DNA of 64,000 nt from Watersipora subatra (Eukaryota > Bryozoa > Gymnolaemata > Cheilostomatida > Watersiporidae). Both the position numbers and the translations under genes were made by a program. Below, one piece after another: positions 30,863 through 60,882 of this stretch. The stretch covers positions 31,153,870 to 31,217,869 of the forward strand of contig NC_088712.1 in assembly GCF_963576615.1 (NCBI RefSeq), written 5' to 3'. Position 1 is the stretch's first letter, and every line of letters starts with the position of its first letter. Under the pieces are notes generated by a model. It saw only the letters and a list, made by a program, of their open reading frames with translations, did no database searches and was not told the origin of the DNA.

Positions 30863-30910
30863 ATGACTTGTTAGATCAGAGCTGAGGCTATGATACCAGA
30901 GCAATGAGGC
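30863..30910 (+). promoter_or_regulatory. two minimal upstream ORFs before the LARGE start
   Basis: ATG-ACT-TGT-TAG at 30863-30874, and an ATG at 30892 (ATG ATA CCA GAG CAA TGA) whose stop overlaps the main start codon as CAATGAGG. The second arrangement would force termination next to the main start and could limit or couple translation. This holds only if transcription starts upstream of them. Confidence 0.45.
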
Positions 30911-30988
30911 TGGTCAGCAGTAGGTTCTTCCTCATCTGCTTATTAACAGCCACTGCGCCAGTCCTACTACTATACTATATTGCTGCTA
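30904..30988 (+). CDS. LARGE1: LARGE exon 1: cytosolic tail and signal anchor
   Basis: Starts with ATG and encodes 28 residues plus one base: MRLVSSRFFLICLLTATAPV and then LLLYYIAA. The basic start (R2, R7) followed by about 20 hydrophobic residues is a type II signal anchor, as expected for a Golgi glycosyltransferase, and matches the size and place of the anchor in vertebrate LARGE. The donor is A|GTGAGTAT at 30989, phase 1, which fits exon 2. The final 28 bases of this exon are the founder of the 42-bp array that follows. Start choice: first in-frame ATG before the anchor. Confidence 0.82.
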
Positions 30989-33900
30989 GTGAGTATCTTT
31001 GTACCTGTCCTACTACTATACTATATTGCTGTGAGTATCTTTGTACCAGTCCTACTACTATACTATATTGCTGTGAGTATCTTTGTTCCTGTCCTACTAC
31101 TATACTATATTGTTGTGAATATCTTTGTACCTGTCCTACTACTATACTATATTGCTGTGAGTATCTTTGTACCTGTCCTACTACTATACTATATTGCTGT
31201 GAGTATCTTTGTTCCTGTCCTACTACTATACTATATTGTTGTGAGTATCTTTGTACCAGTCCTACTACTATACTATATTGTTGTGAATATCTTTGTACCT
31301 GTCCTACTGCTATACTATATTGTTGTGAATATCTTTGTACCTGTCCTACTGCTATACTATATTGTTGTGAGTATCTTTGTACCTGTCCTACTGCTATACT
31401 ATATTGTTGTGAGTATCTTTGTACCCGTCCTACTACTATACTATATTGTTGTGAATATCTTTGTACCCGTCCTACTACTATACTACGTATATTGTTGTGA
31501 GTATCTTTGTACCTGTCCTACTACTATACTATATTGTTGTGAGTATCTTTGTACCTGTCCCACTACTATACTATATTGTTGTGAGTGTCTTTGTACCTGT
31601 CCTACTACTATACTATATTGCTGTGAGTATCTTTGTACCTGTCTTACTAATATACTATATTGTTGTGAGTATCTTTGTACCTGTCCCACTACTATACTAT
31701 ATTGTTGTGAGTGTCTTTGTACCTGTCCTACTACTATACTATATTGCTGTGAGTATCTTTGTACCTGTCCTACTACTATACTATATTGCTGTGAGTATCT
31801 TTGTTCCTGTCCTACTACTATACTATATTGTTGTGAGTATCTTTGTACCAGTCCTACTACTATACTATATTGTTGTGAATATCTTTGTACCTGTCCTACT
31901 GCTATACTATATTGTTGTGAATATCTTTGTACCTGTCCTACTACTATACTATATTGTTGTGAGTATCTTTGTACCTGTCCTACTGCTATACTATATTGTT
32001 GTGAGTATCTTTGTACCTGTCCTACTGCTATACTATATTGTTGTGAGTATCTTTGTACCCGTCCTACTACTATACTATATTGTTGTGAATATCTTTGTAC
32101 CAGTCCTACTACTATACTATATTGTTGTGAGTATCTTTGTACCTGTCCCACTACTATACTATATTGTTGTGAATATCTTTGTACCTGTCCTACTACTATA
32201 CTACGTATATTGTTGTGAGTATCTTTGTACCTGTCTTACTGCTATACTATATTGTTGTGAGTATCTTTGTACCTGTCCCACTACTATACTATATTGTTGT
32301 GAGTATCTTTGTACCTGTCCTACTACTATACTATATTGTTGTGAGTATCTTTGTACCTGTCCTACTACTATACTATATTGCTGTGAGTATCTTTGTACCT
32401 GTCCTACTACTATACTATATTGCTGTGAGTATCTTTGTACCTGTCCTACTACTATACTATATTGCTATGAGTATCTTTGTACCTGTCCTACTACTATACT
32501 ATATTGCTGCGAGTATCTTTGTACCTGTCCTACTACTATACTACGTATATTGTTGTGAGTATCTTTGTACCTGTCTTACTGCTATACTATATTGTTGTGA
32601 GTATCTTTGTACCTGTCCCACTACTATACTATATTGTTGTGAATATCTTTGTACCTGTCCCACTACTATACTATATTGTTGTGAGTATCTTTGTACCTGT
32701 CCTACTACTATACTATATTGTTGTGAGTATCTTTGTACCTGTCCTACTACTATACTATATTGTTGTGAGTATCTTTGTACCCGTCCTACTACTATACTAT
32801 ATTGTTGTGAGTATCTTTGTACCTGTCCTACTACTATACTATATTGTTGTGAGTATCTTTGTACCTGTCCTACTACTATACTATATTGTTGTGAGTATCT
32901 TTGTACCTGTCCTACTACTATACTATATTGTTGTGAGTATCTTTGTACCCGTCCTACTACTATACTATATTGCTATGAGTATCTTTGTACCCGTCCTACT
33001 ACTATACTATATTGCTGTGAATATCTTTGTACCCGTCCTACTACTATACTATATTGTTGTGAGTATCTTTGTACCTGTCCTACTACTATACTATATTGCT
33101 GTGAATATCTTTGTACCCGTCCTACTACTATACTATATTGTTGTGAGTATCTTTGTACCTGTCCCACTACTATACTATATTGTTGTGAGTATCTTTGTAC
33201 CTGTCCTACTACTATACTATATTGTTGTGAGTATCTTTGTACCTGTCCTACTACTATACTATATTGTTGTGAATATCTTTGTACCTGTCCCACTACTATA
33301 CTATATTGTTGTGAGTATCTTTGTACCTGTCCTACTACTATACTATATTGTTGTGAATATCTTTGTACCTGTCCCACTACTATACTATATTGTTGTGAGT
33401 ATCTTTGTACCTGTCCTACTACTATACTATATTGCTATGAGTATCTTTGTACCTGTCCTACTACTATACTATATTGCTGTGAGTATCTTTGTACCTGTCC
33501 TACTACTATACTATATTGCTATGAGTATCTTTGTACCTGTCCTACTACTATACTATATTGTTGTGAGTATCTTTGTACCCGTCCTACTACTATACTATAT
33601 TGCTATGAGTATCTTTGTACCTGTCCCACTACTATACTATATTGTTGTGAATATCTTTGTACCTGTCCCACTACTATACTATATTGTTGTGAGTATCTTT
33701 GTACCTGTCCTACTACTATACTATATTGTTGTGAGTATCTTTGTACCTGTCCTACTACTATACTATATTGTTGTGAATATCTTTGTACCTGTCCCACTAC
33801 TATACTATATTGTTGTGAGTATCTTTGTACCTGTCCTACTACTATACTATATTGTTGTGAATATCTTTGTACCTGTCCTACTACTATACTATATTGTTGT

Positions 33901-34560
33901 GAGTATCTTTGTACCTGTCCTACTACTATACTATATTGTTGTGAGTGTCTTTGTACCTGTCCTACTACTATACTATATTGTTGTGAGTATCTTTGTACCT
34001 GTCTTACTAATATACTATATTGTTGTGAGTATCTTTGTACCCGTCCTACTACTATACTATATTGTTGTGAGTGTCTTTGTACCTGTCCTACTACTATACT
34101 ATATTGCTGTGAGTATCTTTGTACCTGTCCCACTACTATACTATATTGTTGTGAGTATCTTTGTACCTGTCCTACTACTATACTATATTGCTATGAGTAT
34201 CTTTGTACCAGTCCTACTACTATACTATATTGCTGTGAGTGTCTTTGTACCTGTCCTACTACTATACTATATTGCTGTGAATATCTTTGTACCCGTCCTA
34301 CTACTATACTATATTGTTGTGAGTATCTTTGTACCTGTCCTACTACTATACTATATTGCTGTGAATATCTTTGTACCCGTCCTACTACTATACTATATTG
34401 TTGTGAGTATCTTTGTACCCGTCCTACTACTATACTATATTGTTGTGAGTATCTTTGTACCAGTCCTACTACTATACTATATTGCTGCGAGTATCTTTGT
34501 ACCTGTCCTACTACCATACTATTTTGTTGCTAGTATCTTTGTACCTGTCCTCCTACTATG
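30961..34560. repeat. 42-bp minisatellite of 85 periods across the LARGE exon 1 donor
   Basis: The unit begins GTCCTACTACTATACTATAT, continues TG(T/C)TGTGAGTATCTTTG and ends TACCT. GTCC anchors stand at 30961, 31007 and then every 42 bp to 34547. The distance 31007-34547 is 3540 = 84 x 42 + 12, and the 12 extra bases are three copies of a 4-base insertion (ACTACGTATATTG) at about 31486, 32204 and 32546. The first unit is 46 bp because it keeps the exon's GCTGCTAGTGAGT. Most units retain GTGAGT; others have GTGAAT, ATGAGT or GCGAGT. Open frames of up to 784 codons here are artefacts of the 3n period. Confidence 0.97.
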
Positions 34561-34582
34561 TTGTATACTACTGACCTATATA

Positions 34583-35345
34583 CAGTCAACCATGGATAAC
34601 TCGCCCACGGATAGCTCGAACACATGGTTAACTCGAATGGTTTCTTTGGTCCGTTCCCACGTAATGATAAATTGCTATAGATAACTCGACCTACACTTTG
34701 TTAACTCGAACAGTTTTCTGCCCAACGGCTACCGAGACGGTTGTTATTGCTTTAGAAAATCACTTTATTCCAAATCATAGAGGTAAACCTCAACTTTTCG
34801 TAAATCATAGGCGTCGTTATTACTACTGTTGGCAAAATATTTTTGTCAACGACTTTTTTAAAGGTTTGGTGAATTTTGATTTTTACCAAGCATCTGCTTA
34901 GCGATCGCCTTTCGGAAGCATGGAAAAGTGAGGTGACCTTCGCATAAACTTCAAGAAAAATCGGCAAAATTGATCTAGGTTAAAACGCTCAAAAGAAAAA
35001 GATGTCTTTTCTTCTGAGCATTTCAACAACGATCAAGTTTTGTCAATTTTAATCTAAAAAAACGTCCTGGCAATAACATCACCTCAAACAACAAAACAAT
35101 CTCAAGTGATAGAAAAATCTCCTATACTTTTTGATAAAAAAGTTTTAAACTTTACATTAGAAGCATTTAATTTGAAACAAGCCATTTATGTTTTTGATTT
35201 CTATTGTAGTTTGTATATGTGCATGCATCTACTAATAAATAAGTAAATACATGGACTTGTAACAGTGCTTTGATAACTTGAACGCTCTGATAACTTTAAC
35301 ACTTTCGCTCGGTCCCGTGAAGTTCGAGTTATCCATGTTTGACTG
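34583..35345. mobile_element. 'GAGTTATCC' TIR element, full copy, TA target site
   Basis: Left end CAGTCAACCATGGATAACTC, right end in reverse CAGTCAAACATGGATAACTC, TA on both sides (34581-34582 and 35346-35347). At 763 bp it has no transposase. It is the intact form of the sequences at 15780-16375 and 24065-24660. The TA duplication and CAG start fit a Tc1/mariner-type MITE. Confidence 0.87.
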
Positions 35346-35396
35346 TATATATATATATCACCTGTGATATATATATATATATATATTTATATAGTA
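35346..35396. repeat. TA microsatellite with central palindrome
   Basis: (TA)n, then ATCACCTGTGAT, then (TA)n, so the whole tract is self-complementary. Confidence 0.9.
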
Positions 35397-35589
35397 GTGA
35401 AAGTTTTGGTGTAGCACAGGTATTAAAAGTCAGCTTACAAACGGTGATAGCAATGCCACACTAATAAGATCAACTCATAAACAATACCACCTGCCGTTAG
35501 CCTGGCACATTGCCAATGGCTAATTTTCATAAGCTAGTTATCTACAGTTTTTACTCTCATAATGACATATATCGCCCAATGAAATTATC

Positions 35590-35770
35590 ACCCGCGCGTA
35601 GTCAAATTGGAAAGGCATTTGCTTGGTGAATGGGAGGTTCCGAGATCAAACCCTCTGCGATACGGATATCTTTAACCAAAATTTTATAGCTATTAATAAC
35701 TGGACATTCCGAACTACACAATTACACACACACAGACAAACTTTGAGATATATACTGTAGGTATATCTAT
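35590..35770 (+). mobile_element. tRNA-derived SINE, degenerate
   Basis: An A-box-like GTAGTCAAATTGGAAAGGC and a B-box-like GAGATCAAACCC about 40 bases later resemble a tRNA promoter. The sequence continues into a body with ACACACACAGACAAACTTTGAGA and ends in TA repeats. The tail is shared with 36715-36865 and 42955-43125. Confidence 0.6.
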
Positions 35771-35998
35771 ATACTGACAGAGTATATATATATACACTCT
35801 GTCGTCTCTTCATTTCTCATGACTGCTGGCCAATTCTATCGAGCTATCGGTAAACAGAAATTTTACAGAAATGTTCTAGATCATTGTGCTCGTGTTTTTT
35901 GCTGTACATGATGATTGAATTAAAAGCCAGGTATTTATTTAGCAGCCAATCGGCACAAAGTGTGAGTACAAGAAACTCAACAGCTTTGTATATCTGTA

Positions 35999-36240
35999 TT
36001 AGCTGTAGTACCCGGTGTTGCTCGGGTAATAACAAAGTCTGGACAGAATATTTATTTGTATTTAACATATAAAACAACATTTGTCATTCTAACTTTCAAA
36101 CTACGTATCATGAGAAAAGTGTTTTGTGTAGGCCTATAGTTGAAATAATTTAGGAGAAAATAAAAACAACTTAAGATTTTAAAACTTTGTCAAACAACTG
36201 TACCTTTCAAGCTTCACATCATGAGGAAAATATTTTGTGC
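35999..36240 (-). mobile_element. Helitron-like 3' terminus, truncated copy
   Basis: On the minus strand the sequence ends with the hairpin ACCCGAGCAACACCGGGT, about ten bases, then CTAA followed by T. This fits a Helitron 3' end (hairpin, CTRR, target T). The body (AACATTTGTCATTCTAACTT) matches 39838 onward. Confidence 0.55.
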
Positions 36241-36714
36241 AGATCAATAAATTAAAAAAAATGAAACAATTAAAGGTAAAATAGCAAGTAATAGCTAAAT
36301 CATGTCTGTTTTGCTACGATTACAATAAAAGATAATTCGGTAATGATACAATTATTACGAACTGAGAAAGCAAAATAAATATTCTGAATATATGTTGGAT
36401 TGATAATAACAATTCTTGCATAGAAGTGTGTGTATAAAAAAGATTGCTGTTCCACCAGAAGCTAAACTTATAGTACGATGATACTGGTACCTTTTGATAT
36501 TGGTACAAATGTAAAAATGAGATATCGTACTGTCTTTGTCTGACCGAATGGAGAGAGAATGTCGAGGCTCTTCCCACGGAGATAATATAATTGTCTGCGT
36601 GAGAAGAATTGGCCTTGACCTCAGATATAGTAATTGAACCTTACAAAACCTGAAAAAAATCATCAAGTTTCCTAATAACTAGGCGAAGAATATTTCATAA
36701 CTTTTTGGATTTTA

Positions 36715-36865
36715 AACATGCGGTTGCAATCTCTATGAGTTCAAATCCATCTAATTGCGGAATTTTAATTCCAAAATTTTAATAGTTTCAGATAGCCACA
36801 TAGTTTCATACACAACGACAGATACACACACGACCAACATTGAGAAATATATATATACATGTATA
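36715..36865 (+). mobile_element. SINE fragment with B box
   Basis: A B-box-like GAGTTCAAATCC is at 36738-36749. The tail GACAGATACACACACGACCA followed by TTGAGAAATATATATA is the same as in the SINE at 42955. The A-box half is lost or diverged. Confidence 0.55.
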
Positions 36866-36896
36866 TATAGATAGATCGATCATATACAGCCCTCCA

Positions 36897-37694
36897 AGAG
36901 TAGCCGACGGCTATCATGTGGGCGGGGCTTAATGATCGAGCTCTGTTGGGATGAACCCGAATCCGGCACCCGAACAAACCCATATGCTAAATAAAGCCCC
37001 TTGTAAATTTAAAAGTATTATGAACTATAGTGGTTATTTTACTGATCTGTTGAATTCATTTTGTTGTCAAATAAATATAGTTGCCCAATATTGTCATCGT
37101 TACGATCAGTCAGTTGCCATTCACAAGCATTCGTGATATTAATAGTCGCAATCGTAAAATAGCCCAAATTCAGTTTTATATTTAGATTTAGAGTATGAAA
37201 ACTACACTGCACAGCTTTGCCTGCTGTCCCATCTTATTGGCCAGGTAAAACAATGTGACAATGATGAAAGACTGTCATTTTATATTAGGGGTGGCAAAAT
37301 ATTAATCAAACACTAGGGAAAAAAGGCCGTTGTTTGGGTAATTTTGGGTAAATTATATTCAACTTTAAGCATATACTACGAACTTTACCAATTTAAAAAT
37401 TAGTAAAAGTAGGTAATTTGAAATGTTTTGTTTTGCATGGATCCATTATTTTGGTTAGGTATTACCCCTACATTGTAGAAATTCAAGGTTTGCTATATTG
37501 TGAATTGCGGGGCCTACTGACTGAATGAGCTAATGACACGATAACAGCGAGTCGTGTTTTCTGAAACCTAACAAGGCAACGCGACCACCCGGCGAGAATT
37601 GTGTTAGCTTCGAAACCCAGGCTAGCACAATCCTAACTGAGCTCGATCATTAAACCCGCCCATATGATAGCCGTTGCCTATCCTTGGGGGGCTG
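36897..37694. mobile_element. TIR element with CAGCCCTCCAAG ends, TA target site
   Basis: The left arm CAGCCCTCCAAGAGTAGCCG and the right arm in reverse CAGCCCCCCAAGGATAGGCA pair over about 55 bp, including GATCGAGCTC and GCGGG. TA on both sides. 798 bp with no coding sequence of note. Confidence 0.88.
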
Positions 37695-37819
37695 TATATT
37701 ATTGGATAGATTGACTTCTCACTGGCCTAAAGGTGTGTTTAGACTAAAGCAATACACGGACCTCGGTTTAACAATCAAGTGTTCTACAAAATTGTTATAC
37801 AAGCAGATTTTTGATTCAC

Positions 37820-37916
37820 TGATTTACTTGTGCGATTTACTTGTGGGATTTGTGGTGCGATGTACTTGTGCGATTTACTTGTGCGATTTGTGATGCGATT
37901 TACTTGTGCGATTTGT
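37820..37916. repeat. short irregular tandem repeat
   Basis: GTGCGATTTACTT and GTGCGATTTG alternate about seven times. This is a small, impure array inside LARGE intron 1. Confidence 0.75.
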
Positions 37917-38374
37917 TTACGTTTGAATTACCAACAGCATTCACTATGAAACAGTCAATGTAGACAGTTGGTGCAACGTTACTGCATATTTTGAAATGAA
38001 TTAGTAAGGCCAACATGGTTGACTTGATGTTGATATTATGATAGGATGTTTCATACCAAAGACATCGGTATGAAATATCCGACTATGTTGCTAGGATACA
38101 AGACTGTTGGCCGACTAGTAAGAGTCGAGGGAGGCAAGTTGTAATTTTCATTGAATGCCTAGTTTATGTGAGGACTAAGCATTAGTTTCTTCATGGCAGT
38201 CACATCTCGCTCAAATGTATCTGATCCTTTGACCCCCAATTCAGCCAATGATAACGCCAGCTATTATCTACACAAACCTGAACATCCTTGTGTAAAGGAA
38301 CTGACGGAGTTCCTTTACTCCCTCCCTTAGAATAGGACCACTCGAGTACAAGGCAATAAGAGTATGTACTTTGC

Positions 38375-38625
38375 AGCAAATATATACATGTGTATATTTT
38401 GCAGCAAGTATATACATGTATATAAAGGTACAGTCAAGTATATACATGTATATAAATGTACAGTCAAATATATACATGTATGTAAAGGTACAGTCAAATA
38501 TATACATGTATATAAAGGTACAATCAAATATATACATGTATATAAAGGTACAGTCAAATATATACATGTATATAGGCCTATAGGTACAGTCAAAATATAC
38601 ATGTATATAAAAGTACAGTCAAATA
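38375..38625. repeat. 30-bp minisatellite, about 8 copies
   Basis: Each unit contains GTACAGTCAAATATATACAT and GTATATAAAG. Copies are close to identical between 38430 and 38570. It lies in intron 1 of LARGE. Confidence 0.93.
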
Positions 38626-39559
38626 TGCAATAAACATAAGTAATTGCACAGTGTGAGACTTGCAGGTGCTCTGCTCTTGGTCCCTTCTGCGGCATCTTAT
38701 ATAGCTCCTGGCTTTGACTTGGCTCTGCCCTCAATTGTAGAGCCGACTTGGCTCCGCCCTCAGTTGTAGAGCCGATTTCGCCGCCGACCGTAAACATTAC
38801 CAGGAACCTTGTCGTCTACCGAGTTGGGTCTTGGCGTCGGCCGCATCGCCAGTCTTCTCGCTTTCCGTCCTGGTTCAGGCGATCGGTCACACGCTTGCAT
38901 CCCCGCGAACAGTTGAACGATAACATGTATCTAACTTCATCCAATAGGGAGTCGACAAAAAGCTGTAACTACCCAATCATTTCAATCTTCTCCTCAAACA
39001 ATTTAATGACACCTAACATCATTTGGCTAGCACGAGACCTTGACGACTCTATCGGCTTGTTCCAAATAGTTTTTATTACCAAGTTTTGCTGAAGAGTAGA
39101 CTTGGTGCGAACTAGGCTAAGACCCGATTGTCTCTCATTTCCTCATGATTTGACTAAGCAATGCTAAGTACATCGCTGAGCTTGGTACTTTTACTTTGAG
39201 TATGTTCCGATATATTTGTTATGATCTATTACTCCTTCAGTTTGTTCACAGCATGTACATGTCAGCTCCGTTCAAATTTGTGGCGAATATAAACAAATGT
39301 CTTTGTTAGGTGGTAAATAATAATAAATGATAATAACTATCAGTTTAAAGATTTATAAATTAACTCTTTGTGCTTTATAACACGTATTATTGGAATTATA
39401 ATAGCTGGCTTCTCAAGCTTGTAAAATTTAGTAATTGCTGCTTGTAGTCATTCATATCATTATCGATAATATTGCTATTGTAGTCATAATCCTTGGTAGT
39501 TGTCCTCTCTCTCTAAGTTTCACTGTTACAATAAGTTTTCCATTTTACGTGCTTGACAG

Positions 39560-39659
39560 ATACTGTTCAATTGGCACCAGTTGGCCCTGTACCATCATCT
39601 GCTGGTATTGACGTGTCTTCAGTGGAAGAGGACAACATCAGGCTCCGGCAGCAACTCCA
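39560..39659 (+). CDS. LARGE1: LARGE exon 2: stem with coiled-coil heptads
   Basis: Acceptor TTGACAG at 39553-39559, donor CCA|GTGAGT at 39660. It enters in phase 1 and leaves in phase 2. The translation includes TVQLAPVGPVPSSAGIDVSS and then VEEDNIRLRQQL. The second part corresponds to the luminal coiled-coil stem of LARGE (vertebrate REVEEENRALRRQL), which supports oligomerisation and spacing of the catalytic domains from the membrane. Phase 1 entry fits exactly the first donor of exon 1. Confidence 0.85.
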
Positions 39660-46498: not shown

Positions 46499-47254
46499 TT
46501 ACTAACTTATTTGTCCATAAATCAACACGATCAAACAAAACTTCACTAGTTTTAGTTTGAAGCATCTGGCCCAGCATTTATAGACTGCCAGGTAATTAAA
46601 GTAAACAGCAGTGAAATGCCGCGACACTGACAGCAAATCCGTTTCCAAGTCTGTGACTGACATTGATTATTAAAGACAATCTCGGTCTATTTTCAGTACA
46701 AGAAATGTAACCCTAAAAACCTAAGACGGCTGTCACTCTTCGCGGAGTAATCAGCAACGCTCCCAAACATCACTAGTAAGTTTGTGAAAGTCGCTGGTTG
46801 AGCCATGCTTTTGATTAACAGAAGTTCAAGCTGAGCAAGTTTCAGGTTTTTAACGCAACCCAGTGCCACCAGAATGGATATTTGTATTAAAATGACGAAT
46901 GTGAAGAAAGAGGTTGTTTTGGTTACCGACTTAAAAAAGATGACGACAGTGATTTTGAAAGTGATGACGGTGATTTTAAAAGTGACTATTCTGACGACAA
47001 CTTTGTGTGGTAAGACCCCCATTGTTCATTCTTCCATAGGGTCTTGAGGTTGCTCTCTCCCACCCTTTAGGGAATCATGTATTGTCTTAGCCTGAGGATT
47101 CCTCATCCTATTGCGGGAATTTCGAAAGCATGTAGCAGAGTTTATTGGCTACTATAAAGAGATTGTGGGGATATTTAGTAAACATTCAGCGCTTCTAAGA
47201 AATGTGACCTGAGCGAGGGGACAATTGTCCTAAAAAAATTTGGGCATTGCCTTA

Positions 47255-48112
47255 GTCAGTGCAGTGCGATACCTCAGTCAGTGCAGTGCGATACTTCAGT
47301 CAGTGCAGTATGATACTTCAGTCAGTACAGTATGATACCTCAGTCAGTACAGTGCGATACCTCAGTCAGTGCAGTGCGATACCTCAGTCAGTGCAGTATG
47401 ATACCTCAGTCAGCACAGTGCAATACCTCAGTCAGTACAGTGCAATACCTCAGTCAGTACCGTGCGATTCCTCAGTCAGTGCAGTGCGATACCTCAGTCA
47501 GTGCAGTGCGATACCTCAGTCAGTACAGTGCGATACCTCAGTCAGTACAGTGCGATACCTCAGTCAGTACAGTGCGATACCTCAGTCAGTACAGTGCGAT
47601 ACCTCAGTCAGTACAGTGCGATACCTCAGTCAGTACAGTGCGATACCTCAGTCACTACAGTGCGATACCTCAGTTAGTACAGTGCGATACCTCAGTCAGT
47701 ACAGTGCGATACCTCAGTCAGTGCAGTGCGATACCTCAGTACAGTGCGATACCTCAGTCAGTACAGTGCGATACCTCAGTCAGTACAGTGCGATACCTGA
47801 GTCAGTGCAGTGCGATACCTCAGTCACTACAGTGGGATACCTCAGTTAGTACAGTGCGATACCTCAGTCAGTACAGTGCGATACCTCAGTCAGTGCAGTG
47901 CGATACCTCAGTACAGTGCGATACCTCAGTCAGTACAGTGCGATACCTCAGTCATTGCAGTGCGATACCTCAGTCAGTACAGTGCGATACCTCAGTCAGT
48001 ACAGTGCGATACCTCAGTCAGTACAGTGCGATACCTGAGTCAGTGCAGTGCGATACCTCAGTCAGTACAGTGCGATACATCAGTCAGTACAGTGCGATAC
48101 CTCAGTCAGTAC
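47255..48112. repeat. 22-bp minisatellite block A, about 39 copies
   Basis: The unit is CAGTCAGTACAGTGCGATAC plus CT, with TAC/TGC changes and a few shortened copies. Located in LARGE intron 2. Confidence 0.96.
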
Positions 48113-49078: not shown

Positions 49079-49196
49079 AGTCAGTACAGTGCGATACCTC
49101 AGTTACTACAGTGCGATACCTCAGTTAGTACAGTGCGATACCTCAGTCAGTACAGTGCGATACCTCAGTCAGTGCAGTGCGATACCTCAGTCAGTA
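49079..49196. repeat. 22-bp minisatellite block B, about 5 copies
   Basis: Same unit as 47255-48112 (CAGTACAGTGCGATACCTCA). Block B resumes after the ATACCAAAT-rich stretch. Confidence 0.94.
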
Positions 49197-49493
49197 CTCT
49201 GGCTTGCTGAAGGTAGGTACACTTGGAGCACTTCTTGCGATGCTCCATTACTTAAAAAAATATGCAGTGCACGAGTTGCTCGCAATGCTTTGTAATTGTG
49301 TTCTCGATTTGCTGAGCTGACAACTCCATAATTGTTTTTTCAATTTGTTGTGCTTAATAGCCATTTCAGAGTAGCTCTATCGGGACATGCATGTTTCCGA
49401 TAATTTCTTTATGCATTTTTCTAATTTCCTTTTTTTTGTCAGCGTTACGGTATTTTAAATTCCTTTACAAATTGTCTTTTGTTATTATTGTAG

Positions 49494-49557
49494 AAATTAT
49501 CATTCCAAGCTAAATGATGAGAACTGTACAGGCCATAGCAGAGTCCCACAGTGTGAG
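49494..49557 (+). CDS. LARGE1: LARGE exon 3: end of stem
   Basis: Acceptor TATTATTGTAG ends at 49493, donor GAG|GTAGGG at 49558. It enters in phase 2 (completing CAA) and leaves in phase 0. The translation after the split codon is NYHSKLNDENCTGHSRVPQC plus E. The closing CE just before the catalytic domain corresponds to KCE in vertebrate LARGE. The remainder of this stem exon is poorly conserved, as expected. Confidence 0.78.
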
Positions 49558-52371: not shown

Positions 52372-52543
52372 GTTATTCATGTGTGCATCGTGTGCGCTGG
52401 TTACAACGCAGCCAGAGATGTCTCTACAGTCATAAAGTCTCTCCTTTTCTACAGAAGTAATATTCTACATTTGCACCTACTCGTCGACTCCGTTTCTCTT
52501 CCTATTCTCAATACGCTTCTCGGCACTTGGGATATTCCCTCAG
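52372..52543 (+). CDS. LARGE1: LARGE exon 4: start of the first GT-A domain
   Basis: Acceptor GTTACTTGCAG ends at 52371, donor CAG|GTCTGT at 52544. Phase 0 in, phase 1 out, 57 whole codons. It encodes [20 protein letters not shown] followed by IKSLLFYRSNILHLHLLVDS, aligning with the nucleotide-sugar-binding Rossmann start of LARGE (vertebrate [20 protein letters not shown]). The GYN(A)RD signature and the HxHL(I/L)xDS strand are both present. This is the strongest family match together with exons 7 and 8. Confidence 0.95.
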
Positions 52544-53006: not shown

Positions 53007-53617
53007 GTAAGAACAGCTCCAGTGATATTCATGCATCATCTAAGATTTCTCAACTAATTGCTAGTGACTAGGGGGTCAAAGATCCGCATGTTGCTGCACC
53101 CTTGAGAGTTGTATTGAACAGTTATACATAATAGCCTTACTCTGGACATTGATGAATGTAAAGAACTTTGCAACAGTGTTTATACTGTAGTCCCTTATAG
53201 CATGGCATCCTATAAATATAGCCATTAGATTTCCCTGCCTACTATAGTGCGAGTGCGAGCTATCTAGCTTATTTATGTATGTGAGTTTTGAAAAGGGTGA
53301 GTTTCTGTAGCAGGTAAAGTAGCTGCGAGCTAGGTCAGCTGGTCTAGGAACATTACCGGATATTAGCCAAGTTTCACATTGAATTGAATACAATTGTTTA
53401 GCATTGGTTTGAGTTGCTGTAGTGATGCCATTATGTAAACATGGTATGACAAGAAGCTAAAACTCATCTGATATAACAACCTTCTTTACAAAGATATTCA
53501 GCTATTACTAAGAATACCGTTAGAAACTCGTACAATAGCGGCCATAAGTCCACTTTCAACTTTTGCATTAATCTCATTGTAGTTGTCTACTCTTTCTACT
53601 CAACAACTCTCATACAG

Positions 53618-53713
53618 AAAGATGTCTCATGGATTCCAAATGCTCACTATTCCGGTGTCTACGGACTTATGAAACTCCAGCTGCCTTATGTGCTACCAGC
53701 AAACATTGATAAG
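53618..53713 (+). CDS. LARGE1: LARGE exon 6: SWIPN-HYSG segment
   Basis: Acceptor CTCATACAG ends at 53617, donor AAG|GTAGAG at 53714. 32 whole codons, phase 0 to 0. It encodes KDVSWIPNAHYSGVYGLMKL and then QLPYVLPANIDK. SWIPN(x)HYSG(I/V)YGLMKL is an almost invariant block of the LARGE first catalytic domain. Confidence 0.95.
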
Positions 53714-53925
53714 GTAGAGTTGTTCAAATTTTTGTTTGTTTACATTCCTCTGTGTAAGGTTTAGTTGAGAGGGCTGAATACCTGGTGTTGCACTGGGAAT
53801 AAAAAAGGTTTTTGCGCAGAAAATTCATTTTTATTTAGCTTATTACAACATCTACCATTCTAACTTTTAAATGAAGTTGTTTGTTTATTTCTGTCTGTGT
53901 CCAGACAATGCTTAATTCAAATACA

Positions 53926-55874: not shown

Positions 55875-57070
55875 TTTGCTGCTGCATGTAACCTCTCATG
55901 TTATCGAGACCCTTGTCTCTCTTCAACGCCCCTGTCTTACATACATGTAACCCCTCATGTTATCAAGACCCTTGTCTCTCTTCAACACCCCTGTCTTACA
56001 TACATGTAACCTCTCGTGTTATCGAGACCCTTGTCTCTCTTCAACACCCCTATCTTACATACATGTAACCTCTCATGTTATCGAGAGCCTTGTCTCTCTT
56101 CAACGCCCCTGTCTTAAGCCTGGTTCCCATATACGTAGCAAAGCACCGGCGATAATATCGCGCAGCAAAACACTTGCGGTGCTCGGCGCAGTTTAATGTT
56201 CACATAAAAGCCACATCGTTAATAATATCGTAAACATAATTGCGTAATCAAATAAAATGTTCGCTCGCCATGTCGTTTCTATAATGGTGACCTTTACCGG
56301 TGCAGTGCATTTCGGGAAGGTTTTGCCTGCGGCCGTTTGCGAAATTTGAACATGCGCAAACTCTTGCGTTGACCGCCGGCATCCACCGGCGGTGCACTGC
56401 GATCCGCGGCGTGTAGGTTCCCATTTTACCGCAATAGCCTGCGGTGCTGTCGCCGGTGCTTTGCGGCGTATATGGGAACCAGGTTTTACGTACATGTCAC
56501 CTCTCATGTTATCGAGACCCTTGTCTCTCTTCAACGCCCCTGTCTTACGAACATGTAACCTCTTGTGTTATCGAGACCCTTGTCTCTCTTCAACACCCTT
56601 GTCTCACGTACTTGTAACATCTCGTGTTATCGAGACTCTTTTCTCTCTTCAACACCCCTGTCTTACATACATGTAACCTCTCATGTTATCGAGAGCCTTG
56701 TCTTTCTTCAATGCCCCTGTCTTACATACATGTACATGTAACCTCTCATGCTATCAAGACCCTTGTCTTTCTTCAACACCCCTGTCTTACATACATGTCA
56801 CCTCTCATGTTATCAAGGCCGTTGTCTCTCTTCAACACCCCTGTCTTACGTACATGTAACCTCTCACGTTATCAAGGCCCTTGTCTCTCTTCAACACCCC
56901 TGTCTTACGTACATGTAACCTCTCACGTTATCAAGGTCCTTGTCTCTTTTCAACACCCCTGTCTTGCATAGATGTAACCTCTCATGTTATGGAGGCCCTT
57001 GTCTCTCTTCAACGCCCCTGTCTTACATACATGTAACCTTTCATGTTATCAAGGCCCTTGTCTCTCTTTT
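55875..57070. repeat. 59-bp minisatellite, about 14 copies, interrupted
   Basis: Each unit contains TCTTACATACATGTAACCTC, TCATGTTATCGAGACCCTTG and TCTCTCTTCAACGCCCCTG. About four copies precede and ten follow the insertion at 56117-56485. In LARGE intron 6. Confidence 0.94.
56117..56485. mobile_element. PIF/Harbinger-like MITE inserted in the 59-bp array
   Basis: The ends AGCCTGGTTCCCATATACGT and, in reverse, AACCTGGTTCCCATATACGC continue pairing as GCAAAGCACCGGCGA for a total of about 38 bp. TTA is repeated at 56114-56116 and 56486-56488. Because neighbouring units read CTGTCTTACGTACATG, the empty site is known. 369 bp, GC-richer than its surroundings, no coding sequence. Confidence 0.93.
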
Positions 57071-57161: not shown

Positions 57162-57317
57162 GTAATCCTTCTTGACACAGATATAGTCTTCTCGTCTGAC
57201 ATCGCGGAACTCTGGAAGATGTTCCAGCTTTTTAGCAGTCAGCAGTTTATCGGCTTGGTTGAAAACCTGAGCGACTGGTATCTGCCTAGCTCAGGCCTTG
57301 GTAACTGGCCTGCACTC
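57162..57317 (+). CDS. LARGE1: LARGE exon 7: DXD catalytic motif
   Basis: Acceptor GCTAATTACAG ends at 57161, donor CTC|GTGAGT at 57318. 52 whole codons, phase 0 to 0. It starts [20 protein letters not shown] and continues with [20 protein letters not shown] and GNWPAL. DTD is the metal- and UDP-sugar-binding DXD of the first domain (vertebrate VIVLDTDITFATDIAELW), and GLVENxSDWYL is equally diagnostic. The catalytic residues are intact. Confidence 0.97.
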
Positions 57318-58198: not shown

Positions 58199-58330
58199 GG
58201 ACGGGGGTTTAACACAGGAGTGATGTTAATGAATCTTAGGCTAATGAAAGAAAGAAATTGGGCTAAACTCTGGAGACAAGTTGCCAACAAGTACTTGCCT
58301 GAGGCTGGCCCAACACGCCTGGCAGACCAA
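58199..58330 (+). CDS. LARGE1: LARGE exon 8: GRGFNTGV to ADQ
   Basis: Acceptor ACCTTTCAG ends at 58198, donor CAA|GTGAGT at 58331. 44 whole codons, phase 0 to 0. It encodes GRGFNTGVMLMNLRLMKERN, then WAKLWRQVANKYLPEAG and PTRLADQ. It aligns with vertebrate [34 protein letters not shown] ... SLADQ. The next exon should begin D-I-F-N-like in phase 0; none was found up to base 64000. Confidence 0.96.
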
Positions 58331-60335: not shown

Positions 60336-60344
60336 CAAAAATTA

Positions 60345-60882
60345 CTGTAACAACTATAATTACTGTAAGTAACTACAGTTACTTACAGTAATTACTTACA
60401 GTAACTATAGTTACTTACAGTAACTATAGTTATTATAAGTAACTATAGTTACTTACAGTAACTATAGTTTCTGTAAGAAACTATAGTTACTTATAGTAAC
60501 TATAGTTTCTGTAAGTAACTATAGTTACTTATAGTAACTATAGTTTCTGTAAGTAATTACTGTAAGTAACTATAGTTACTTATAGTAACTATAGTTACTG
60601 TAAGTAATTACTGTAAGAAACTATAGTAACTTACAGTAATTACTGTAAGAAACTATAGTTACTTATAGTAACTATAGTTACTGTAAGTAATTACTGTAAG
60701 AAACTATAGTTACTTATAGTAACTATAGTTACTGTAAGTAATTACTGTAAGTAACTATAGTTACTTATAGTAACTATAGTTACTGTAAGTAATTACTTAT
60801 AGTAACTATAGTTACTTACAGTAATTACTTACAGTAACCATAGTTACTTACAGTAATTACTGTAAGAAACTATAGTTACTGA
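60345..60882. repeat. palindromic repeat array TAACTATAGTTA / GTAATTACTGTAA
   Basis: Short palindromes TAACTATAGTTA, ACTGTAAGTAATTACT and related forms alternate for about 540 bp, so both strands read almost alike and very many hairpins or a cruciform could form. There is no fixed unit length. Confidence 0.93.

Follow-up and report, generated by a model that had tools for sequence, protein, structure and literature searches.

In the bryozoan Watersipora subatra, the first coding exon of the LARGE glycosyltransferase gene runs into a minisatellite that begins inside the membrane-anchor codons and multiplies the LARGE 5' splice site along its length. With a probability of roughly 0.8, this is a minisatellite of the type known in amphioxus as 'mirages', derived from the LARGE exon 1/intron 1 boundary, in which the first donor is still used and the copies are decoys, with no adaptive role needed. 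The array is most likely neutral, and modulation of LARGE by it is unsupported so far. The window referred to throughout is the whole stretch of 64,000 nucleotides that was analysed, and positions are counted from its first base.

Seven exons in the window join to encode 280 residues that are identical (280/280) to residues 1-280 of a W. subatra protein of 709 residues (P0106, with the database name 'xylosyl- and glucuronyltransferase LARGE2s-like'), and all six introns between them start with GT and end with AG (Table 1). Within a six-exon join, residues 62-246 match PDB 7ui6, a human LARGE1 chain (E = 9e-61), and Pfam GT8 is matched as well (PF01501, E = 6.6e-11); PF13896 is absent from the six exons scanned and is present on full-length P0106 as a precomputed annotation. 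Beyond exon 7, no segment of P0106 found a match in the window at the required bit score of more than 22. The original prediction had taken the gene for LARGE, which the 7ui6 match and the identity to P0106 confirm, and had placed the array in its first coding exon, which also holds, since the seven-exon join reproduces P0106 from residue 1; the LARGE protein of Bugula neritina (P0107) is alignable at exon 1 too. Two short proteins from public contigs (P0103 and P0104) align to 53576-53725, at LARGE exon 5, and P0104, at 76% over 50 residues, is perhaps from another bryozoan.

Table 1. Positions in the window of the boundary array, its donor-like sites and the LARGE exons.
Feature	Position	Strand	Description
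LARGE exon 1, first coding exon	30904..30988	+	ATG 30904, short N-terminal tail, membrane anchor MRLVSSRFFLICLLTATAPVLLLYYIAA; ends in phase 1
42-bp minisatellite, about 85 units	30961..34559	+	unit of 24 nt like the end of exon 1 and 18 nt like the start of intron 1
First unit, 46 nt	30961..31006	+	28 exonic and 18 intronic nt; GCTA extra before the donor
Authentic 5' splice site, CTA/GTGAGTATC	30989..30997	+	donor implied by P0106
Eleven further donor-like sites	31031..31459	+	42-nt spacing, LARGE frame kept; seven GTGAGT, four GTGAAT
46-nt unit	31469..31514	+	4-nt insertion, through which the stop at 31498-31500 comes into the exon-1 frame
LARGE exon 2 (stem, VEEDNIRLRQQL)	39560..39659	+	seven-exon join matching P0106
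LARGE exon 3	49494..49557	+	seven-exon join matching P0106
LARGE exon 4 (IHVCIVCAGYNAARDV)	52372..52543	+	seven-exon join matching P0106
LARGE exon 5	53583..53713	+	seven-exon join matching P0106
LARGE exon 6 (VILLDTDI)	57162..57317	+	seven-exon join matching P0106
LARGE exon 7	58199..58330	+	seven-exon join matching P0106

TRF describes the array with a period of 42, 85.3 copies, 94% matches and a score of 6291. It contains 76 donor-like GT sites, comprising 58 GTGAGT and 18 GTGAAT with the authentic site counted, and the density of GTGAGT is 16 per kb in the array versus 0.31 per kb in the 60.4 kb of the window that lie outside it, where 19 occur. The first twelve donor-like sites lie at 30989 + 42n, the last of these being 31451, and the next step is one of 46 bases, to 31497. 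A 42-bp unit that starts in the anchor codons and includes the donor, some 85 periods, dozens of donor-like sites and a 42-nt spacing from 30989 and 31031 on to about 31451 had all been predicted and are all found, except that the period of 42 bp applies to the usual unit, which, unlike the first unit of 46 bases, lacks GCTA before the donor. Three array units have a 4-nt insertion other than the GCTA of the first unit, and the 46-nt variant unit that starts at 31469 is found again at 32187 and 32527. The last full unit has GCTAGT where the donor would stand. Altogether there are 29 unit variants, if the first unit and the truncated last unit are included, in varied order, and the longest repeated multi-unit block is five units long, versus a mean of 2.5 and a maximum of 5 in 200 shuffles, which hints weakly at duplication of multi-unit blocks within the array. 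At the 84 in-register sites past the first, GTGAGT stands at 57, GTGAAT at 18, ATGAGT at six, GCGAGT at two and GCTAGT at one, and few positions of the unit vary as much as donor position +5; taken together, the donors along the array are not preserved intact. For the idea that RNA structure hides the copies, there is one predicted fold, of a 126-nt piece, at -10.2 kcal/mol, a single value without a shuffle control.

Comparison with other LARGE proteins supports an old, anchor-coding origin for the unit's exonic half, and birth of the array from the exon. At the anchor position, P0107 of Bugula neritina, which belongs with W. subatra to the suborder Flustrina, reads VVPVLLLYYIAST, in which PVLLLYYIA is identical to the W. 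subatra sequence at nine of nine residues, and the predicted derivation of the minisatellite from an exon-intron boundary is upheld by this conservation. More widely, 33 of the 90 distinct N-termini of LARGE proteins that were compared contain P-[VATILMC]-x-x-x-[hydrophobic]-Y, a pattern chosen post hoc from the sequences (for example, as AGAFPVLLLLYLALN in Solemya velum P0217), whereas 500 shuffles averaged 1.2 and never exceeded 5, the observed span being the first 45 residues and the shuffled one 42. These N-termini derive from at least 221 LARGE proteins listed, 96 of which have 660-770 residues and an M start and yield the 90 distinct 42-residue starts, some of them clearly truncated; the 57 of these 90 without the pattern include many vertebrate or insect sequences.

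As a route to such an array, a boundary stretch of 28 nt of exon and 18 nt of intron would have been duplicated, perhaps via slippage between two short motifs that resemble each other, the exonic CCAGTCCT and the intronic CCTGTCCT. Four nt would then have dropped out of the unit as it amplified, and further slippage or unequal exchange would have brought it to about 85 copies, which now occupy the 5' end of intron 1 over some 3.6 kb. With CCAGTCCT at the left edge in the exon and CCTGTCCTCCTACTAT at the end of the array, birth by slippage between two such motifs is plausible; the right-hand motif CCTGTCCTCCTACTAT may as well be a decayed unit.

Seventeen arrays, hand-picked and merged from TRF rows, make up 14.6% of the window, or 8.9% when the LARGE-boundary array is excluded, and at 8.9% chance alone would be expected to put 1.2 of 13 splice boundaries inside arrays, with one observed. 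Because minisatellites are dense, the arrival of an array on a boundary is a likely event somewhere in the W. subatra genome, and the remarkable part is the length of the array together with its strong donor, not the overlap itself.

Several other repeats lie in and around the gene. In the intron before exon 6, a 371-bp element (56116-56486) with 46-nt inverted ends (85% complementary) splits a 59-bp minisatellite (55885-56116 and 56486-57068), and TTA, seen by eye, flanks the element on both sides, which suggests a target-site duplication and hence a small DNA transposon within a minisatellite. In the intron before exon 3, one 22-bp unit (CCTCAGTCAGTACAGTGCGATA, rotated in the second array) forms two arrays about 1 kb apart, at 47250-48112 and 49079-49197. 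Downstream of exon 7, positions 60342-60881 hold a tandem array that is imperfect and in part self-complementary, with TTACTGTAAGTAACTATAG as well as longer periods. Additionally, Bugula neritina P0107 has a stretch of about 36 residues missing from W. subatra (alignment columns about 397-432), with the near-repeat SYTVLHAISCYTVLQA; the stretch may be either a further exon-edge repeat or intron sequence that the gene model failed to remove. Searches of the window gave no RNA-family match at the gathering score and no tRNA gene; for positions 1-30900, coverage of protein genes consisted of a listing of open reading frames.

The array donors are predicted to be only slightly weaker than the authentic donor. 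On a rough weight matrix, the authentic donor scores 7.1 and the GTGAGT copies score 5.8-5.9 (the best at most 5.9), and the energy of the U1 duplex is -7.6 for the authentic donor versus -7.4 kcal/mol for the GTGAGT copies. Such copies fall within the top 3.5% of 3658 GT sites outside the array and, set against the five other LARGE donors scored (the exon 3 donor being left out), they beat three by the matrix and all five by U1 duplex (-5.7 to -6.9). Most copies differ from the authentic site only in the three preceding exonic bases and in position. Since the copies are near-equal to the authentic donor, their use is feasible as far as sequence goes, which counts against a simple silent reading, and a silent array would itself need explaining; if silent, the array offers a natural test of how the spliceosome chooses one donor among 58 look-alike GTGAGT sites.

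The protein record bears on which donor is chosen. Residue 29 of P0106 is asparagine, followed by TVQ, and among the twelve in-frame donors 30989 alone yields ...YYIAANTVQ..., the other eleven giving tyrosine before TVQ, after 14n extra residues. The LARGE record thus fits the joining of 30989 to 39560. P0106 is the sole W. subatra LARGE protein among the matches listed, has one member sequence and no isoform tag, and may be a gene model, possibly an automatic one. The LARGE protein search covered proteins of up to about 747 residues (1.75 x 427), and hence full-length isoforms with n <= 2 only, and within that range no W. subatra LARGE isoform with one or two extra units was listed. A search with the exon-1/array frame covered proteins of about 109-346 residues (to 1.75 x 198), a range that full-length LARGE exceeds, and gave no match at E <= 0.001 among 1863 candidates; inspection of Bugula neritina P0107 by eye revealed no array-type peptide. 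Because of these length limits, the absence of such isoforms from the listings is thin evidence. The claim that the extra donors are used to vary the LARGE anchor or stem, or its expression, is therefore not sustained, given that the sole listed protein fits 30989 and that the searches reach n <= 2. The finding that would have counted against that claim from the outset, that 30989 alone is always used, applies to one database protein and at the level of protein, not of reads.

If donors 30989 + 42n (n = 0 to 11) were joined to 39560, each would keep the frame and add 14n residues of the EYLCTCPTTILYCC type, as had been anticipated for the eleven extra donors. By translation, the exon-1 frame runs through the array to a first stop at 31498, in agreement with the predicted opening to 31500. 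Among the eleven, the donors at 31115, 31283, 31325 and 31451 are GTGAAT and weaker at +5. The 64 GT sites from 31497 onward lie after the frame shift, and an exon extending past 31500 holds a LARGE-frame stop. Because the first unit has 46 and not 42 bases, the copies are read as EYLCTCPTTILYCC, in a frame other than that of the anchor codons, and the anchor is not repeated; the added unit is mildly hydrophobic, with a mean Kyte-Doolittle value of 0.88, between that of the anchor (2.18) and that of the stem (-0.54). The frame stays open across the copies because 42 equals 3 x 14 and the unit is free of stops, and the open frame was rejected as a sign of function, being a consequence of unit length and no independent evidence. 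In the favoured reading, splicing would stay at 30989, as judged at the level of the database protein, and the copies would be decoys within intron 1; mistaken use of one of the first eleven would, by translation, lengthen the stem by 14n residues, and use of a later copy would bring a frame shift or stop, such transcripts being expected to be degraded.

It is unlikely, though worth weighing, that the array functions as a set of donors in the manner of human IFI6, with several of the first eleven in use, stems lengthened by 14n cysteine-rich residues and expression affected by array length. The kept frame for n = 1 to 11 would suit such a role, as would the seven in-frame GTGAGT donors, with predicted U1 pairing near-equal to that of the authentic donor, and the human IFI6 minisatellite is reported to act in this way in the part of the literature drawn on (PMC4526556). 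However, the sole listed W. subatra LARGE protein fits 30989, with forms of n = 1-2 not listed and those of n >= 3 beyond the reach of the search, and neither the Bugula neritina protein, by eye, nor the 1863 candidates of about 109-346 residues (at E <= 0.001) offer a counterpart of the added peptide. Amphioxus mirages, moreover, are reported not to disturb splicing in the sections of PMC3087553 relied on here, and a priori 1 in 3 unit lengths is a multiple of three. A little less probable again is the array as a splice-donor rheostat, in which the first copies would give the stems with 14n more cysteine-rich residues, later copies would remove transcripts, and array length would set LARGE output and anchor or stem length among individuals or among the zooids of a clonal colony. 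Were the extra donors used, the array would be a large, possibly variable IFI6 counterpart in a conserved glycosyltransferase gene.

The remaining explanations have still less to recommend them. Behind one of them is the idea of telescripting: the 58 GTGAGT in 3.6 kb would form, at the start of intron 1, a U1-pairing field that, while playing no part in splicing, affects transcription or shields the long pre-mRNA from premature cleavage and polyadenylation. The local excess of GTGAGT (16 versus 0.31 per kb) and the predicted U1 pairing of the copies, near that of the authentic site, are in keeping with this, but the copies vary at +1, +2 and +5, and the idea is very improbable. An intronic origin of the array, with later spread into the exon that would make the anchor codons repeat-derived, might seem to follow from the exon end belonging to the array; it is rejected, as something scarcely probable, because the same nine residues stand at the same place in Bugula neritina and a similar anchor pattern occurs in other phyla. 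Long arrays of similar units are open to mis-assembly, yet an artefact in the array or its length is the least credible explanation, in view of the 29 unit variants in varied order and of an assembly reported, in the portion of its description used, as PacBio HiFi with a primary QV of 63.2; an alternate haplotype, GCA_963576605.1, exists, as do an RNA-seq run, ERR11641139 (PMC12902671), and the HiFi runs ERR11458812 and ERR11458813.

Both the structure of the array and its proposed mode of action are of already known kinds, of which it is a striking large bryozoan example. The amphioxus Adh mirages are reportedly due to Canestro and colleagues (2002). In the parts of the sources consulted, mirages are minisatellite-like repeats of exon-intron boundaries, found in Adh3, the globins BflGb6 and BflGb9 and troponin C, with a similar case in PGBD5, and many carry splice signals and vary in length, regular splicing being reported as undisturbed (PMC3087553, PMC3902484). 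The BflGb6 units measure 150-160 bp and number 6 in one haplotype and 3 in the other, and those of Adh3 measure 10-72 bp (PMC3087553, in part). Like mirages, the W. subatra units span exonic and intronic sequence of one boundary (24 + 18 nt) and their copies bear splice signals (58 GTGAGT and 18 GTGAAT); unlike mirages, they have a bryozoan host, involve a 5' splice site and number about 85, at 42 nt each. The IFI6 minisatellite of humans has a repeat unit of 12 bp. Two of its downstream units are reported to be used as splice donors, giving three mRNA species, according to the passages of PMC4526556 that draw on Turri 1995. As in IFI6, the W. subatra unit keeps the reading frame (42 = 3 x 14; n = 0 to 11), whereas use of the extra donors is reported for IFI6 and would be hypothetical for the W. 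subatra array. Its GT8 domain and its match to human LARGE1 (7ui6) liken the gene itself to LARGE1/LARGE2, the xylosyl- and glucuronyltransferases. To our knowledge, a minisatellite in intron 1 is not a feature of the LARGE family. Among the openly licensed papers listed there was no bryozoan case of an exon-boundary minisatellite, the papers on bryozoans and minisatellites being judged irrelevant from titles or the starts of abstracts. As far as the literature was searched, the W. subatra array adds Bryozoa to amphioxus and human as hosts of exon-boundary minisatellites, and does so with many more units than the amphioxus globin examples.
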